Shown here: positions 22,795-55,681 of the stretch, in pieces
Position numbering within the stretch: the first letter of the stretch is position 1
Layout: every line of letters begins with the position of its first letter
Assembly (NCBI GenBank): GCA_014192425.1
Contig: BJHK01000006.1
Span: 62,001-126,000 of the forward strand
Origin: Planctomycetia bacterium
GTDB lineage: Bacteria; Planctomycetota; Planctomycetia; Pirellulales; UBA1268
Reading direction: 5' to 3'
Length of the DNA: 64,000 nt
Made by a program: the position numbers and the translations under genes
Notes under the pieces: model-generated
Databases searched by the model: none
What the model was told of the DNA's origin: nothing
What the model saw: only the letters and a program-made list of their open reading frames with translations

Positions 22795-22820
22795 CGCTGA
22801 GGCAGGATAGCCTCACGCTC
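22795..22820 (+). repeat. 26-bp segment shared in inverted orientation with 9570-9595
   Basis: The exact reverse complement of 9570-9595, containing CTGAGGCAGGATAGCCTCAC. It sits at the start of the first 159-bp unit, and both copies flank members of the two-hairpin family. Confidence 0.85.
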
Positions 22821-23120
22821 CGCGTCCTGCTGCCGTTCTTCCTGCTCCGTCAGATGTCGCGTACCCACTCGGCGCCGGGCGCACGCCCGGCGTGGGAGCC
22901 GGGCTGTGCCCGGCGACCGTAAGCCGGAGCCGACGCCGTGTCGTCGGCGACGGCGCGAAACCTAGCGAGCCTCACGCTCCGCGTCCTGCTGCCGTTCTTC
23001 CTGCTCGGTCAGATGTCGCGTACCCACTCGGCGCCGGGCGCACGCCCGGCGTGGGAGCCGGGCTGTGCCCGGCGACCGTAAGCCGGAGCCGACGCCGTGT
23101 CGTCGGCGACGGCGCGAAAC
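22811..23120 (+). repeat. Tandem duplication, two 151-bp copies at 159-bp spacing
   Basis: Two nearly identical copies, 22811-22961 and 22970-23120, differ by one base (CTGCTCCGT against CTGCTCGGT). Each ends with the dispersed element: hairpins GCGCCGGGCG-CA-CGCCCGGCGT and GCCGGGCTGTGCCCGGC, then CCGTAAGCCGGAGCCGAC. A relative is present in opposite orientation at 9453-9520. The array fills the space between rseP and lepA, whose 3' ends converge here, so it may act as a bidirectional terminator or be a mobile intergenic repeat. Confidence 0.9.
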
Positions 23121-41707: not shown

Positions 41708-44458
41708 TCATCTCATCGCCGGCGAAAGGCCCGGGCTGCCCTGCAGCGCGTCGAGCTGCCGGGCAGCCGCGTCGACGTCGGCCTGCCTGGCCGTCACCTG
41801 CGCGCGTTTCCCGGCGCTCGCCTGCCCGGCGTCGGCCACCGCCTTGGAGGCCTCCGCGATTTCGGCGTCGACGGCCGGCAGCGCCGCCTTCACGGCCGCG
41901 ATGTCGGCCTTCTGCCTCTCGCCGGCGGCCCGCTTGTCGACGATCGCCCGCTCCCAGGCGGTCTTTTCCGCCAGCAGGGCGGCGAGGCCGTCCTGTTCCT
42001 GCTTGAGATGCACCCGCTTGGCGTCGAGGGCCGCGGCGAGCCCGGCCCGGGCCTGCTCGAGCGCCGCGTCGTCCGGGGCGGCGGCCAGCCCCTTGTCGAG
42101 GATCGTCGTCGACTCCTCGATCACGGCGATGGCCCGCAGCGACCGCTCGATCGCCCCCTGTGCGGCGGCCACCGCACCCCCCTGCTGCTCGATGCGGCCA
42201 GCGAGCGTCTGCATCTCCTGCTCCCCCTGCACGACGGCCGCCGCCAGCGTCTCGACCTGCTTCTGCAGGCCGTCCTTCCGCGCGACGACGGCCTGCAGCG
42301 CCTGTTCCCGGACCTGCCTGCCGGCCTCTGCCTCGGCCAGTTCCGCCGCCGCCTGGCCGAGCACCTGCTCGCGGTCGGCGAGCAGCTCGAGGAGACCGTC
42401 GTAGTTCGACTGAAACACCACCTCGGCGCGCCAGCCGGCGTGGACCGCCACGGCCTGGGCGAGCTGGGCCGCGAGTGCCGCGGCGTGGTCCGTCGCCTGC
42501 CGGTGCTTCGTCGTGGCGGCGGCGACCGCGGCATCGGCCTGAGCGAGCTGCTGGGCGGCCGCGTCGGCGACGGCCTGCGCCCGATCGCGCTGACCGGCGC
42601 CGGCCACGGCCTGTTGCACCGCCTGCACGATCGCCGCGGCCCGCGCTGCGACGTGCGCCGTGCCGGGGGCGCGATGTCCCTCTGCCTCGGCCTGCTTCGC
42701 CTGAGCCGCGGCAAGCACCTGTTCGGCGGCCTCCTTGGCGGCGGCGTCGTCGCCCGCGGCCGCAACCGCCACCGTCGCCGCCAGCACCTCACCGGCCGCG
42801 GTGGCGATCTGCTGGTCGATCGCCGTCAGGGCAACCGCCGCTTCGGCATGCGCCTGCTTCGCGGCGGCGACTGCGGCCGCGGTGGCATCGACGTGCTTCT
42901 GGAGATCGGCATGGGTGCCGTCGGCGGCCGTCTTCGCCGCGCGGGCGGCCTCCCGCGCCTGCGTCGCCGCGGCCAGGGCCGCGGCGGCTGCCGCGACGGC
43001 CTGCTGCGCCTCGGCGACCGGCGGCCGCCGGGCGGCGACGTCGCGGTCGGCGGCCGCCACGCGGTCGGCGAGTGCCGGGGGATTGGCGTCGAGGCCGCCC
43101 ACCCGGGCCGCATCGGCCGCGTTCCAGACGCGGATCTCGCCGGTCCAGTCACCGGCGATGACGCGATTGGTCTCGTCGCAGTACGATGCCGCCAGGCCGA
43201 TGTCGGCGGCGGCCTCGAACGACCGCTCCGCGGTGCCGTCGGCCTTCCAGAGCTTCGGCACCTTGTCGCGGCCCGTGGAGACGAGCCGGCCGTCGCGCGT
43301 GAACTCGAGGGCAGCGACGCCGCCGTGCGCGGCCCAGGCCTTCACCTGCCCGCCATTCTCGAGTTCCCAGAGCCGGATCTGTCCGTCTTCGCAGCCGGTC
43401 GCGAGCAGGTTGGAGTCGCCGCGCCACGCCAGGCTCGTCACGCTCGCGGGATGAACGCGCAGGATGAGGAAGTCGCGGCCCGTTGCCGCCTCCCAGAGGA
43501 TCACCCCCCCGGCGCGGTCGGCCGTCGCCAGCAGCGCGCCGTCGGGGCTGAAGGCGACGGCGGTGATCCAGTCGGTGTGCCGGGCGAGATCGTGGAGCTT
43601 GTGCCCGTTCTCGAGCGACCAGATGCGGGCCACGCGCTGTGGCCCCCCCATCGCGACGAGCCGTTGGTCGGGGCTGATGTCGGCGGCCAGCACGACGTCG
43701 AGCTCGTCACCCAGGGTGCGGATCCGCCGACCGCTCCTGGTATTCCAGACGGCGACCCTGCCGCTCACCGCCCCCACGCCCCCCCCGGCGAGCACGAGCC
43801 CGCCGCCGTGGCTGAACCTGACGACGTGCGGTCGCCCCTCGGGGAAGGGCAGCACGCCCGCCAGCGTCAGCGAATCGGTCCGGTAGAGCAGCACCTGCTT
43901 CTGGCCGCAGACGGCGGCCAGCGGCGCCCAGGGGCTCGTGGCGATCGACGCGCAGGCATCGACCGTCGGCGTCCGCAGCACCGGCTCCAGCGGCAGATGG
44001 GCAGGCAGCGGCTGCACGGCCGGCCGCTCACCGACCGGGGCCGCGAGCGCCACGACGACCTTCTTGGCGACCACGGCCACGCTCCCCCCGGTCTCGAGCA
44101 GGCCGCCGTCGATCCAGGCGCGCAGCACCTGCCGCTCGGCTTCCGGGATCGGCGGCCCGTCGGGGGGCATCTTCGGCTCGTCGTCGTGGTTGGCGAGCCG
44201 GAACAGATGGCTCGCCTGCGCGTTCCCCGGCACGAGCACCGCGCCCGAGCCGCCACCGGCCATGATGCCGGCGTAGGTCGTGACATCGAGGCCCGCCGTC
44301 TTCTTGTCGGCGTTGTGGCAGGAGCCGCAGCGCTGCCGCAGCACCGGCAGCGCGTGATCGCTGAACGTCACCGTGTCCGCGGCCCGGACGGGCGCGCAGA
44401 CGGCCAGCGCCGCCCAGGCGGCCCAGCCCAGCCGAGAACAATGGGAGCGACGCGTCAT
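41708..44458 (-). CDS. Exported cytochrome-domain / WD40 / coiled-coil protein
   Basis: A 916-aa planctomycete-type protein, last in the operon. It has a signal peptide (WAAWAALAVCAPVRAA), a PSCyt1 c-type cytochrome domain with CGSCHN (Cys44, Cys47, His48) and PKMPPDGPPIPEAERQVLRAWIDGG, then WD40 beta-propeller repeats (WITAVAFSPDGALLATAD, VTSLAWRGDSNLLATGCEDG), and finally about 430 residues of alanine-rich coiled coil. The combination suggests an exported structural or electron-transfer scaffold. It follows the DUF1549/DUF1553 gene with only two bases between stop and start. Confidence 0.88.
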   Translation of the reverse strand: MTRRSHCSRLGWAAWAALAVCAPVRAADTVTFSDHALPVLRQRCGSCHNADKKTAGLDVTTYAGIMAGGGSGAVLVPGNAQASHLFRLANHDDEPKMPPDGPPIPEAERQVLRAWIDGGLLETGGSVAVVAKKVVVALAAPVGERPAVQPLPAHLPLEPVLRTPTVDACASIATSPWAPLAAVCGQKQVLLYRTDSLTLAGVLPFPEGRPHVVRFSHGGGLVLAGGGVGAVSGRVAVWNTRSGRRIRTLGDELDVVLAADISPDQRLVAMGGPQRVARIWSLENGHKLHDLARHTDWITAVAFSPDGALLATADRAGGVILWEAATGRDFLILRVHPASVTSLAWRGDSNLLATGCEDGQIRLWELENGGQVKAWAAHGGVAALEFTRDGRLVSTGRDKVPKLWKADGTAERSFEAAADIGLAASYCDETNRVIAGDWTGEIRVWNAADAARVGGLDANPPALADRVAAADRDVAARRPPVAEAQQAVAAAAAALAAATQAREAARAAKTAADGTHADLQKHVDATAAAVAAAKQAHAEAAVALTAIDQQIATAAGEVLAATVAVAAAGDDAAAKEAAEQVLAAAQAKQAEAEGHRAPGTAHVAARAAAIVQAVQQAVAGAGQRDRAQAVADAAAQQLAQADAAVAAATTKHRQATDHAAALAAQLAQAVAVHAGWRAEVVFQSNYDGLLELLADREQVLGQAAAELAEAEAGRQVREQALQAVVARKDGLQKQVETLAAAVVQGEQEMQTLAGRIEQQGGAVAAAQGAIERSLRAIAVIEESTTILDKGLAAAPDDAALEQARAGLAAALDAKRVHLKQEQDGLAALLAEKTAWERAIVDKRAAGERQKADIAAVKAALPAVDAEIAEASKAVADAGQASAGKRAQVTARQADVDAAARQLDALQGSPGLSPAMR

Positions 44459-44460
44459 GG

Positions 44461-47109
44461 TCAGTGGTTGAAGACGAATTCACGGGAGTTGAGGATCGCC
44501 CAGAAGCCGTCCTCGAGATTCCGCTGCACGGCCGCGGGATCCTGAGCCGCGGGATCCTGAGCCGCGGGATCCTGAGCCGCGGGATCCTTGGCCGTGGGAT
44601 CCTTGGCCGTGGGATCCTTGGCCGTGGGATCCTTGGCCGTGGGATCCTTGGCCGTGGGATCCTTGGCCGTGGGATCCTTGGCCGTGGGATCCTTGGCCGT
44701 GGGATCGGCGACGACCTCCAGGAGCGCGGCCCGCTCCTTGTCGGTCGGCAGGCGGGTGAGCGTGCGCAGGTAGAGCTCCTCGATGACCTGTTCCGGTGTC
44801 CGCTTCTCGGCGAGCAGGTGTTTCACGACGCCGCCGGCCGCGATCTTCTGCTGGACCGTATCGCCGTTGAGCAGGTGCAGGGCCTGGGAGAGGTTCGGCT
44901 CCATCTTCACCTCGCAGGAGCAGGCGCTGCCCCGCGTGGCCCGGCCGAAGGTGCTGAGGAAGTAGGTGCTCGTGTTGCCGTCGGCGATCTGCACGGCGCG
45001 GGCCCCGAGCGGCAGGCCCTTGAACTTGTTCTGCGTGGCCGTCGCGCCGGTGACCATGTCGAGCAGCACCTCGGCGCGAATTCTGCGCAGGCGGGCCTTG
45101 GAGAAGTTCCGCTCATCGCCGGCGTTGGTGTCGTTGGCCTGCGTCGAACGCTGGTAGGCGTGCGACGTGCAGATCTCGCGCACCAGCCGCTTGAAATCGT
45201 ACTTCGATGCCACGAACGACCTGGCGAGGGCGTCGAGCAGCGGCGCGTTGGCGGGCGGATTGCTCACGCGCACGTCGTCGACCGCGTCGACGATGCCGAC
45301 CCCAAAGAAATGCGCCCACACGATGTTGACGAGGTTGCGGCCGAAGTGTTCGTTATCCGGCGACGCCAGCCATTCGGCGAGCACCGCGCGGCGGTCCCGC
45401 CCCCGGCAGTCGGGTGCGGCTCCCCCGAGGAACTTCGGCGGTACGACCCGGCCGCCGACGGGGTGCTTCACGTCGCCGCGGCCGGCATCGAAGACGATCG
45501 TCTCCCGCGGGTCCTCTCCCGCCTTGCGGCCGATGTGGGCGAAGAAGGAGGCGAAGCCGTAGTAGTCGTCCATCGTCCAGCGGTCGAAGGGATGGTTGTG
45601 GCACTGGGCGCACTGGATCCGCATTCCCATGAAAACCTGCGCGACGTTCTCCGCCGTCTTGAGCGTGTCGCGCTCGTGCTGGAAGTAGTTTGTCTCCGGC
45701 TCGGTGAAGGTGCCCCCCTTGGCCGAGAGCAGTTCGCGCACCAGCGCGTCGATGGGCGTGTTGGCCTCGATCCGCTCCTGCAGCCAGTTGGAGTACAGGA
45801 GCATCGCCTTGTAACTGACCGCGTTGGCGACGGTGCGGATCATCATCAGCTCCGACCACTTCATCACCCACAGGTCGACGAACTCCTTCCGGGACAGGAG
45901 CTGGTCGACGAGGTGGGCCCGCTTCTGCGGGTCGCTGCTCGTCATGAAGGAGCGGTATTCGTCGGCGCTGGGGAGCACGCCGCAGATGTCGAGGCTCGCC
46001 CGACGCAGGAACTCCTCGTCGCTGCACAGGCCCGACGGATTGATCCGCAACTTCCGCAGCTTGCGATGGATCAGGTCGTCGATGGCGTTCGCCGCCGGCG
46101 GGTTCGCCCAGGTGAAGGCGTGGCCCGCGGGGAGGGTGATGCAGTGGCTGCCCACGGTGTGGCTCTCGAAGCGGGCCATCACGAAGGCCTCGCCGCGGTT
46201 GCCCGCGCTGACGAGCCCGCCCGCAGTGACGGCGGCCGCGTCGTCGTTGCTGGTGAGGAACACGGCCAGGGCCGTCACGTCGCGGTCGGTGCCGTCGGCG
46301 TAGCGGGCCCGCACCGCGAGCTGCTGCGTGGCCCCGGGCCCGTCGAGGACGGCCTCCGGCGGGAACAGGTCGACGCCGACGACGGCCGGCGTGGGACCGG
46401 GGTCGTTGCGGGCGCCCTCCTTCAGCCAGCGCGTGAGCGTGGCATGGTGTTCGTCACCCGGCGTGAGCCGGATACCGCCGCCGTGCGGCACGGAGTTGGT
46501 CGCCTTGGTGAGCAGGAGGCTCTCGTCCGGCAGCGCGCGGTTGATGCGGCGTCCGGGCATCTCGCGGGTGAGCCGGTGGTAGTCGGCCTCGGGATCGAAG
46601 CCGAAGAGTGAGAGCCGAAAGCCGTCCTTGCCCCGCGCGGCGCCGTGGCAGCTGCCGGCGTTGCAGCCGCTCCGCATGAAGACCGGCATCACGTCGAGCC
46701 GGAAGTCGAGACGCGGGTCCTCGCCGGCCCGCTCGACGTGCACCGGCACGGTCACCTGCGTGCCGGCGACGGTGACCGTGAGCGTGGTGTCGCCGTCGGC
46801 CAGCGGGTGGAGCGTTGTGTTTTCGAGCCGCACCGTGGCGGGATCTGCGACCGCGAGCGTTGCCGTCCGCGTCACGTCGCGCGTGATCCCGTCGCCTTCC
46901 ACCACCTGTACGACCAGCGACTGCCGGTCGCGGGCCGTCGAGAGATGGACGGTCGGTGGAAACACATGCACCGTCGCCGCGGCCGGCGCCGCCCCGGCGG
47001 CCGGCTGATCGGCCCGGGCTCCGGCGGCCGCCGTCGCCGCGGCGAGCAGGATCAGAGTGGCACCCGCGTGGGCGGGCCGCCGGCGGCAGGCGTGTGCTGG
47101 GTGGAACAT
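44461..47109 (-). CDS. DUF1549/DUF1553 planctomycete cytochrome-like protein
   Basis: An 882-aa exported protein of the PSD1/DUF1549-DUF1553 group found almost only in planctomycetes. It has a signal peptide, a bacterial Ig-like N-terminal region (about 45-125), a cytochrome-type motif CNAGSCH (a CX4CH spacing), a second CAQCHNHPFDRWT in the DUF1549 region, and a DUF1553 C-terminal domain. Between residues about 800 and 860 it carries an in-frame run of PTAKD and PAAQD pentapeptides. It is third in the DUF1501 operon, 5 bases after the PPC-domain gene. Biochemical role unknown. Confidence 0.9.
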   Translation of the reverse strand: MFHPAHACRRRPAHAGATLILLAAATAAAGARADQPAAGAAPAAATVHVFPPTVHLSTARDRQSLVVQVVEGDGITRDVTRTATLAVADPATVRLENTTLHPLADGDTTLTVTVAGTQVTVPVHVERAGEDPRLDFRLDVMPVFMRSGCNAGSCHGAARGKDGFRLSLFGFDPEADYHRLTREMPGRRINRALPDESLLLTKATNSVPHGGGIRLTPGDEHHATLTRWLKEGARNDPGPTPAVVGVDLFPPEAVLDGPGATQQLAVRARYADGTDRDVTALAVFLTSNDDAAAVTAGGLVSAGNRGEAFVMARFESHTVGSHCITLPAGHAFTWANPPAANAIDDLIHRKLRKLRINPSGLCSDEEFLRRASLDICGVLPSADEYRSFMTSSDPQKRAHLVDQLLSRKEFVDLWVMKWSELMMIRTVANAVSYKAMLLYSNWLQERIEANTPIDALVRELLSAKGGTFTEPETNYFQHERDTLKTAENVAQVFMGMRIQCAQCHNHPFDRWTMDDYYGFASFFAHIGRKAGEDPRETIVFDAGRGDVKHPVGGRVVPPKFLGGAAPDCRGRDRRAVLAEWLASPDNEHFGRNLVNIVWAHFFGVGIVDAVDDVRVSNPPANAPLLDALARSFVASKYDFKRLVREICTSHAYQRSTQANDTNAGDERNFSKARLRRIRAEVLLDMVTGATATQNKFKGLPLGARAVQIADGNTSTYFLSTFGRATRGSACSCEVKMEPNLSQALHLLNGDTVQQKIAAGGVVKHLLAEKRTPEQVIEELYLRTLTRLPTDKERAALLEVVADPTAKDPTAKDPTAKDPTAKDPTAKDPTAKDPTAKDPTAKDPAAQDPAAQDPAAQDPAAVQRNLEDGFWAILNSREFVFNH
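44531..44706 (+). repeat. 15-bp minisatellite inside the DUF1553 gene
   Basis: About 11 tandem 15-bp units, alternating between two versions: three GCCGCGGGATCCTGA-like units then about eight GCCGTGGGATCCTTG-like units (plus-strand sense). Each unit holds a GGATCC. On the coding minus strand they encode PAAQD and PTAKD repeats, with the reading frame preserved because the period is 15. The type switch in the array suggests expansion by slippage. Confidence 0.92.
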
Positions 47110-53950: not shown

Positions 53951-55363
53951 ATGAAGCCCCGTGAAGTGCTCGCGATGTGTCGCGAGAAGGAAGTCAAGGC
54001 CATCGACCTGCGGTTCACCGATTTTTTCGGTGCCTGGCAGCACTTCACCATCCCGGTCGGCAAGCTCGAAGAGGACGTCTTCGAGGACGGGCTCGGCTTC
54101 GACGGCTCGAGCATCCGTGGCTGGCAGGCGATCAACGAGAGCGACATGCTGCTCGTGCCGGTGCCCGGCAGCGCCTTCGTCGATCCCTTCGCCCAGATTC
54201 CCACGCTGGCGATGATCTGCATGATCCAGGACCCGATCAGCCGCGAGGACTATTCCCGCGACCCGCGCAACATCGCGCGCAAGGCGGTCAACTATCTGAA
54301 GAGCACCGGCATCGCCGACACCTGCTTCATCGGCCCGGAGGCGGAGTTCTTCGTGTTCGACGACGTGCGGTTCGACCAGAACGCGCACGAGGGCTACTAC
54401 CACCTCGATTCGCGGGAAGCGGAGTGGAACCGGGGCCGGGCCGAGGGGCCGAATCTCGGCTACAAGCTGCGGTTCAAGGAGGGGTACTTCCCCTGCCCCC
54501 CCGCCGACCAGCTCATGGACCTGCGCAACGAGATGATGCAGACCATGATCCAGTGCGGTATCGACGTCGAGGCCCAGCACCACGAGGTGGCCACGGCCGG
54601 CCAGTGCGAGATCGACATGCGGTTCCAGGAACTGGTGAAGATGGCCGACCAGATGTGCCTCTACAAGTACATCGTGCGCAACGTGGCCCGCCGCCACGGC
54701 CGCACCGTGACCTTCATGCCCAAGCCGCTGTACGGCGACAACGGCTCGGGCATGCACACCCACATCTCGCTCTGGAAGGAGGGGCATCCGTTGTTCGCCG
54801 GCAGTGGCTACGCCGGCCTCTCCGAGATGGCCCTGCACGCCATCGGCGGCATCCTCCGCCACGCGCCGGCGATCCTCGCGATCACGAACCCGACGACCAA
54901 CAGTTACAAGCGGCTCGTGCCCGGCTACGAGGCCCCGGTGAACCTCGCCTACTCGCAGCGCAACCGCTCCGCCAGCTGCCGGATCCCGATGTACTCGGCC
55001 AGTCCGAAGACGAAGCGGGTGGAGTTTCGCTGTCCCGACCCGACCTGCAATCCGTACCTCGCGTTCGCGGCCATCCTCATGGCGGCGATCGACGGCATCC
55101 AGAACAAGATTCATCCCGGCGACCCGCTCGACCGCGACATCTATGACATGCCGCCGGAGGAGCTGGCGAACGTGCCCAAGGCGCCCGGCTCGCTGGAGGA
55201 GGCGCTCGTCGCCATGGAGCGGGACGCCGACTTCCTGCTCCGCGGCGACGTGTTCACCGAGGACGTGATCGGCACGTGGCTGAAGTGGAAGCGCGAGCGG
55301 GAGATCGACGCGATGCGGCTCCGGCCGCATCCGTACGAGTTCTGCCTCTATTTTGATGCGTGA
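53951..55363 (+). CDS. glnA: Glutamine synthetase, type I
   Basis: Synthesises glutamine from glutamate and ammonium with ATP. At 470 aa it has the usual markers: [53 protein letters not shown], and the adenylylation-site region IYDMPPEEL with Tyr, consistent with GlnE control. A GAGGAG site lies before the ATG. The 3' end matters: its last four codons (TTT GAT GCG TGA) are also the first bases of the tandem three-hairpin repeat that continues downstream. Confidence 0.96.
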
Positions 55364-55681
55364 GAAGCCATCCCTGGCCTTCTCACGCAGCGCCCGGTGG
55401 GCAACGCCGAGGGTTGCCGCACCGGGCGGCGCCGCATCGTGCGGCGGTTTGATGCGTGAGAAGCCCTCCCTGGCCTTCTCACGCAGCGCCCGGCGGGCAA
55501 CGCCGAGGGTTGCCCACCGGGCGGCGCCGCATCGTGCGGCGGTTTGATGCGTGAGAAGCCATCCCTGGCCCTTTCCACGCAGCGGCCGGTGGGCAACGCC
55601 GAGGGTTGCCGCACCGGGCGGCGCCGCATCGTGCGGCGGTTTGATGCGTGAGAAGCCCTCCCTGGCCTGCGCTCACACGCA
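55352..55681 (+). repeat. Tandem three-hairpin array (about 3.4 copies of a 96-bp unit)
   Basis: Units start at 55352, 55448, 55543 and a partial at 55640. Each begins TTTGATGCGTGAGAAGCC and contains stem one GTGAGAAGCC/GGCCTTCTCAC (loop ATCCCT or CTCCCT), stem two CCCGGTGGGCAAC with loop GCCGAG, and GCCGCATCGTGCGGCGG. The third unit has a right arm changed to CCTTTCCAC. The first unit includes the last codons and stop of glnA, so the array grew from the glnA terminator region. It is related to the single element at 32795-32908. Confidence 0.9.

Follow-up and report, generated by a model that had tools for sequence, protein, structure and literature searches.

Many prokaryotic satellites are gene segments coding for amino acid repeats, and lengths divisible by three predominate among those of Bacteria, as stated in the available part of a survey (PMC6749651). 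The array described here lies in a 64,000-nucleotide stretch of planctomycete DNA (the window) and resembles the intragenic in-frame minisatellites and VNTRs of bacteria in its period, which is a multiple of three, its position inside a gene, the amino acid repeat that it encodes and its homogeneous blocks. A VNTR, however, is defined by its variability in a population, whereas the window array is known from one genome. The protein that carries it resembles the PSCyt2/PSD1 proteins of planctomycetes, with which it shares both Pfam domains and neighboring genes for PSCyt1-WD40, PPC, and DUF1501 proteins, but the C-terminal loop has 21 to 35 residues in the homologs measured and 76 in the window protein. 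A redox function has been suggested for DUF1553 proteins from their domains (PMC2754498, available part). Judged by title or the beginning of the abstract, none of the literature matches listed describes the window array; a paper that treats copy numbers of tandem repeats in M. tuberculosis (PMC12817950, available part) is not used here as evidence.

The array looks genuine and fairly ordinary. It offers a fairly clean before-and-after view of a coding minisatellite, with a short loop and a likely seed in the relatives and the expanded form in one species, and it would matter more if its copy number varies and alters the behavior of the protein.

The array and its carrier protein

TRF reports a repeat of period 15 with 11.8 copies, a match of 97%, and a score of 284 at 44530-44706, and codon-by-codon reading resolves twelve units (Table 1). 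The original prediction had placed an in-frame 15-bp array at 44531-44706, which is correct to within 4 bases, and its PTAKD/PAAQD units are the same array read in another phase (DPTAK/DPAAQ on the coding strand). On that strand, the order from 5' to 3' is eight copies of GATCCCACGGCCAAG, three of GATCCCGCGGCTCAG, and one of GATCCCGCGGCCGTG, followed by CAGCGGAATCTCGAG. The units GATCCCACGGCCAAG and GATCCCGCGGCTCAG differ at 3 positions, and every base is alike inside each block. Such a block-wise switch of unit type had been ascribed to slippage, and such a pattern is indeed to be expected after slippage or unequal exchange. Within the coding sequence, the exact period of 15 is kept over a run of at most 111 bases, compared with a maximum of 13 over 1,000 codon shuffles of the same sequence. 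With a period divisible by three, a reading frame that stays intact (as had been claimed), and a regularity beyond chance, the array is a coding in-frame minisatellite. When a 25-base pattern spanning the units was searched against the whole source genome, with as many as 3 mismatches allowed, all 8 matches fell inside the array. On the opposite (plus) strand, a frame at 44464-46611 with RGILG repeats was considered as an antisense gene and rejected, as open frames of this kind are expected opposite a GC-rich gene.

Table 1. Coordinates of the array, its units, and the genes at the locus (positions in the window)
Feature	Position	Strand	Remarks
CDS, exported-looking DUF1549/DUF1553 (PSCyt2/PSD1) protein, 882 aa, BIG2-type Ig-like modules	44461..47109	-	
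Tandem array, twelve 15-bp in-frame units (8 DPTAK, 3 DPAAQ, 1 DPAAV)	44527..44706	-	Residues 802-861; TRF and codon-by-codon reading
8 identical units GATCCCACGGCCAAG = DPTAK	44587..44706	-	Codon-by-codon reading
3 identical units GATCCCGCGGCTCAG = DPAAQ	44542..44586	-	Codon-by-codon reading
Boundary unit GATCCCGCGGCCGTG = DPAAV	44527..44541	-	Codon-by-codon reading
Next gene, PSCyt1 + WD40 protein	41708..44458	-	ATG 2 bp past the stop codon that ends the repeat-bearing CDS

The encoded protein is a member of the DUF1549/DUF1553 (PSCyt2/PSD1) family, since both domains exceed their Pfam gathering scores: PF07583 (DUF1549) at residues 343-526 with 150 bits (cut-off, 29.8) and PF07587 (DUF1553) at residues 573-799 with 144.8 bits (cut-off, 28.5). 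The assignment of the array to a DUF1553 protein therefore stands, with the refinement that the minus strand is the coding strand and that the array, near the C terminus, follows directly after the DUF1553 match (573-799) instead of lying in it. Weak Extensin and HC2 matches across the repeat, both below the cut-off, reflect mere low complexity or composition. One PPC gene and one DUF1501 gene lie upstream. The N terminus, judged by eye, resembles a Sec signal peptide, and export of the protein is therefore likely.

An AlphaFold2 model computed from 41 sequences (the window protein and 40 homologs) has a mean pLDDT of 71.1 and a pTM of 0.72. The pLDDT falls below 50 at residues 806-854, between one helix at 790-801 and another at 858-873. 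Given the residues that the array occupies, its last unit would run into the beginning of the last helix, with the remainder forming an unstructured loop; behind the array, the model has one short helix and the conserved end, with no separate domain. Hence, the description of the array as a linker agrees with an unstructured segment between two confidently predicted helices, but not the description as a surface linker: the protein looks exported, nothing puts it on the cell surface, no anchor was noticed in it by eye, and exposure on a protein is not exposure on a cell. In a PDB sequence search, the 41-sequence profile matched BIG2-type Ig domains of solved structures, and the same BIG2/Ig-like module came up again among the best 50 of 1,086 fold matches when the model was searched with Foldseek. 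Their counterparts are modules of Leptospira Lig and of S-layer proteins, a likeness that does not locate the repeat-bearing protein. For the DUF1549/DUF1553 part, the PDB sequence search and the best 50 of the 1,086 fold matches held nothing usable; the matches were otherwise Ig-like, S-layer-type, and weak others.

The loop in related genomes

We compared 110 homolog loci, namely, the 30 best matches of one search and the best 80 of 557 from another, a set in which some genes occur in both searches and from which weaker homologs were left out. The contigs of the latter 80 are mostly titled planctomycete MAGs, a few bearing other names. Among the 110 tails (100 parsed by script and 10 read by eye), an array is present in the window gene's own copy only. 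The loop before the last helix was measured in 97 of the 100 parsed tails and comprises 21 residues in 75, 22 in nine, 23 in two, 25 in two, 27 in four, 35 in four, and 76 in the window protein. With identical tails counted once, 89 remain, of which 70 have a loop of 21 residues, nine of 22, two of 23, one of 25, two of 27, and two of 35 (that is, 22 to 35 residues in 16 of them), next to two unmeasured tails and the window protein with 76. The three unmeasured tails and the ten missed by the script were without an array when read by eye. Subtraction of 11 units from the window loop leaves exactly 21 residues, the common length among homologs, and subtraction of 10 units leaves 26, near the 27 residues of four orthologs of the same genus. 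Across 72 genomes of the family (one per species), the array DNA was found in one, the source genome; the array is absent, or the loop of a different length, in the relatives compared. The expectation that copy number could change the length of the loop without breaking the protein fits this spread of lengths.

Within the genus, none of the seven orthologous loops that could be read contains an array; they measure 35 residues in G001 and G007, 27 in G002, G004, G009, and G018, and 25 in G021. A degenerate pentapeptide doublet is present in four of the seven, the orthologs with 27 residues, in the forms DPTAG-TPAGL, DPAAR-TPAAL, DASAK-TPAGL, and EPAAE-KPAGL. The loops of G001 and G007, both array-free, contain DPAAV, and in G007 (L006) 15 bases are identical to the boundary unit GATCCCGCGGCCGTG. 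Judged from these sequences, the DPAAV/pentapeptide motif is a plausible seed of the array. In six further species (G003, G006, G011, G012, G016, and G020), the array is also absent, but the homolog read there is a more distant one, and in G005 the homolog is a fragment without this end.

Arrays in other proteins of the family

A set of 140 homologous frames that include a stop codon, each distinct tail entering once, was screened for arrays of at least 2.5 copies with a TRF score of at least 100. Nine frames have one: L001 (the window gene), L027, L086, L098, L047, L069, L130, L011, and L054. They lie toward the N terminus in all except the window gene and L130; the frames were taken from stop to stop, and some N-terminal arrays may sit upstream of the true start codon. 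Closest to the window array are those of the orthologs L086 (1-177) and L098 (5844-6000; contig titled Gimesia), which have 10 to 12 copies and resemble it in protein family, in the 15-bp period, and in having two unit types in blocks, here PAPAK and PVPAK. The numbers of these units differ between the two genes, of which L086 is cut by the contig end. In contrast to the window array, both lie near the N terminus (in L098, after the signal peptide), and their unit sequence is unrelated.

For the genus, 96 DUF1553 frames were inspected, comprising 11 of the 12 paralogs of the source genome (one was skipped as masked) and 85 frames from other species; 93 of 101 loci gave a frame. Two of the 96, both from the source genome, have an array of at least 4 copies and a score of at least 45, a contrast with the other species that is not a rate because the latter were sampled as high-scoring Pfam matches and not at random. 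One of the two paralogs, L130, has an AGEKM array between domains. The other, L123 (a 960-aa frame), has a 12-bp RGDA array shortly before the last helix region, apparently in the C-terminal loop that also holds the window array. With comparable in-frame arrays in homologs and paralogs, the window array is of an already known kind.

Origin of the array

We propose, with a probability of about 0.8, a recent, lineage-specific expansion of a short preexisting motif by slippage or unequal recombination in a length-tolerant, disordered loop of a PSD1 protein, with nearly neutral effect. The starting point would be a short motif already present in the loop between the last two helices of the PSD1 (DUF1553) protein, which may then have been copied in tandem by replication slippage or unequal recombination. 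Since the loop appears to tolerate changes in length and the unit size is divisible by three, the expansion would have left the protein readable and would not have been removed, and the added residues are most likely of little or no consequence. From the uniform blocks, the motif in relatives, and the frame-keeping unit, we infer slippage or unequal exchange as the mechanism; strong selection could be another source of blocks free of substitutions.

An alternative is that the array is a functional tether, adjustable in the manner of a contingency locus, whose copy number sets how far apart, or how flexibly joined, the PSD1 domain and the last helix are. The array is in frame and disordered, it lies in a loop between helices whose length varies from 25 to 76 residues within the genus, and the array of L123 in the corresponding loop could be a sign that length there is used. 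We nevertheless consider such a tether unlikely, as all seven other readable orthologs of the genus have loops of 25 to 35 residues and most homologs have 21, and what would be tethered is one short helix and a conserved end. A broader version, in which in-frame repeat expansion recurs in this lineage at the loop preceding the terminal helix of PSD1 proteins (window gene and L123) and the loop serves as an adjustable tether that changes in length more rapidly than other parts of the protein change, is quite improbable in our estimation. The array might also act at the nucleic acid level, for example, through an mRNA structure that affects coupling to the next gene with its closely spaced ATG. 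Its RNA folds better than all of 200 dinucleotide shuffles (z, -5.44), but of 500 arrays that keep the layout and have their units permuted, 50 fold equally well or better, as do 10 of 120 codon-order permutations (the observed order being among the 120). Hence, the RNA stem is mostly a by-product of repetition. Since, in addition, Rfam gave no match at the gathering threshold over 44000-45200, and nothing resembling a promoter or a terminator was found in 44300-44900, an RNA or regulatory element was set aside; the relatives examined lack the array, which also argues against such a role, and we give it very little credence.

The array or its copy number could finally be a product of the assembly, a draft of 70 contigs; a different repeat family has several of its matches in sister genomes at the ends of contigs, which would be expected at places where an assembly breaks. 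However, near-identical arrays of far greater length are present in the same assembly (one of 3 × 295 bp at 99% and one of 4.5 × 98 bp at 100%). Near-identical arrays of that length are rarely resolved by short reads, and their presence suggests that reads able to span 180 bp were used. The array itself has two unit types, a clean junction, and unique flanks. An assembly error at this site is thus unlikely, and an artefactual array or copy number is improbable, although in a draft of this kind the exact copy number could be a result of the assembly.

Repeats elsewhere in the genome

Arrays of at least 3 copies and a period of at least 6 number 17 in a 399-kb sample of the source genome (window excluded), 5 in 397 kb of G012, G009, and G017 of the same genus (P = 0.017), and 9 in 400 kb of G022 (P = 0.17). 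At a match of at least 94% and a score of at least 60, the numbers are 8, 1 (P = 0.039), and 4 (P = 0.39), respectively. Three of the 17 arrays overlap a dispersed palindromic family, and the remaining 14 compare with 5 at P = 0.064 and with 9 at P = 0.40; the samples are not random and differ in GC content and assembly quality, and therefore, we claim no genome-wide excess of arrays. A MutS-type domain is present in the source genome.

The window contains two further repeats. At 22809-23120, a 159-bp direct duplication (99%) with hairpin-forming palindromes is a member of a dispersed family, often arranged in tandem, that has 125 matches in the source genome. Its 90-bp core has at least 102 matches there, compared with counts that range from 0 to 40 among 21 other species of the genus (0 in 10 of the 21); all these counts are lower bounds because 40 candidates were scored per genome. 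From its sequence, the family looks like a REP-type element, and one Y1-transposase-type domain occurs in the source genome. At 55352-55668, a 96-bp unit is present in 3.3 copies and has 15 further matches in the source genome at 72 to 91% identity.
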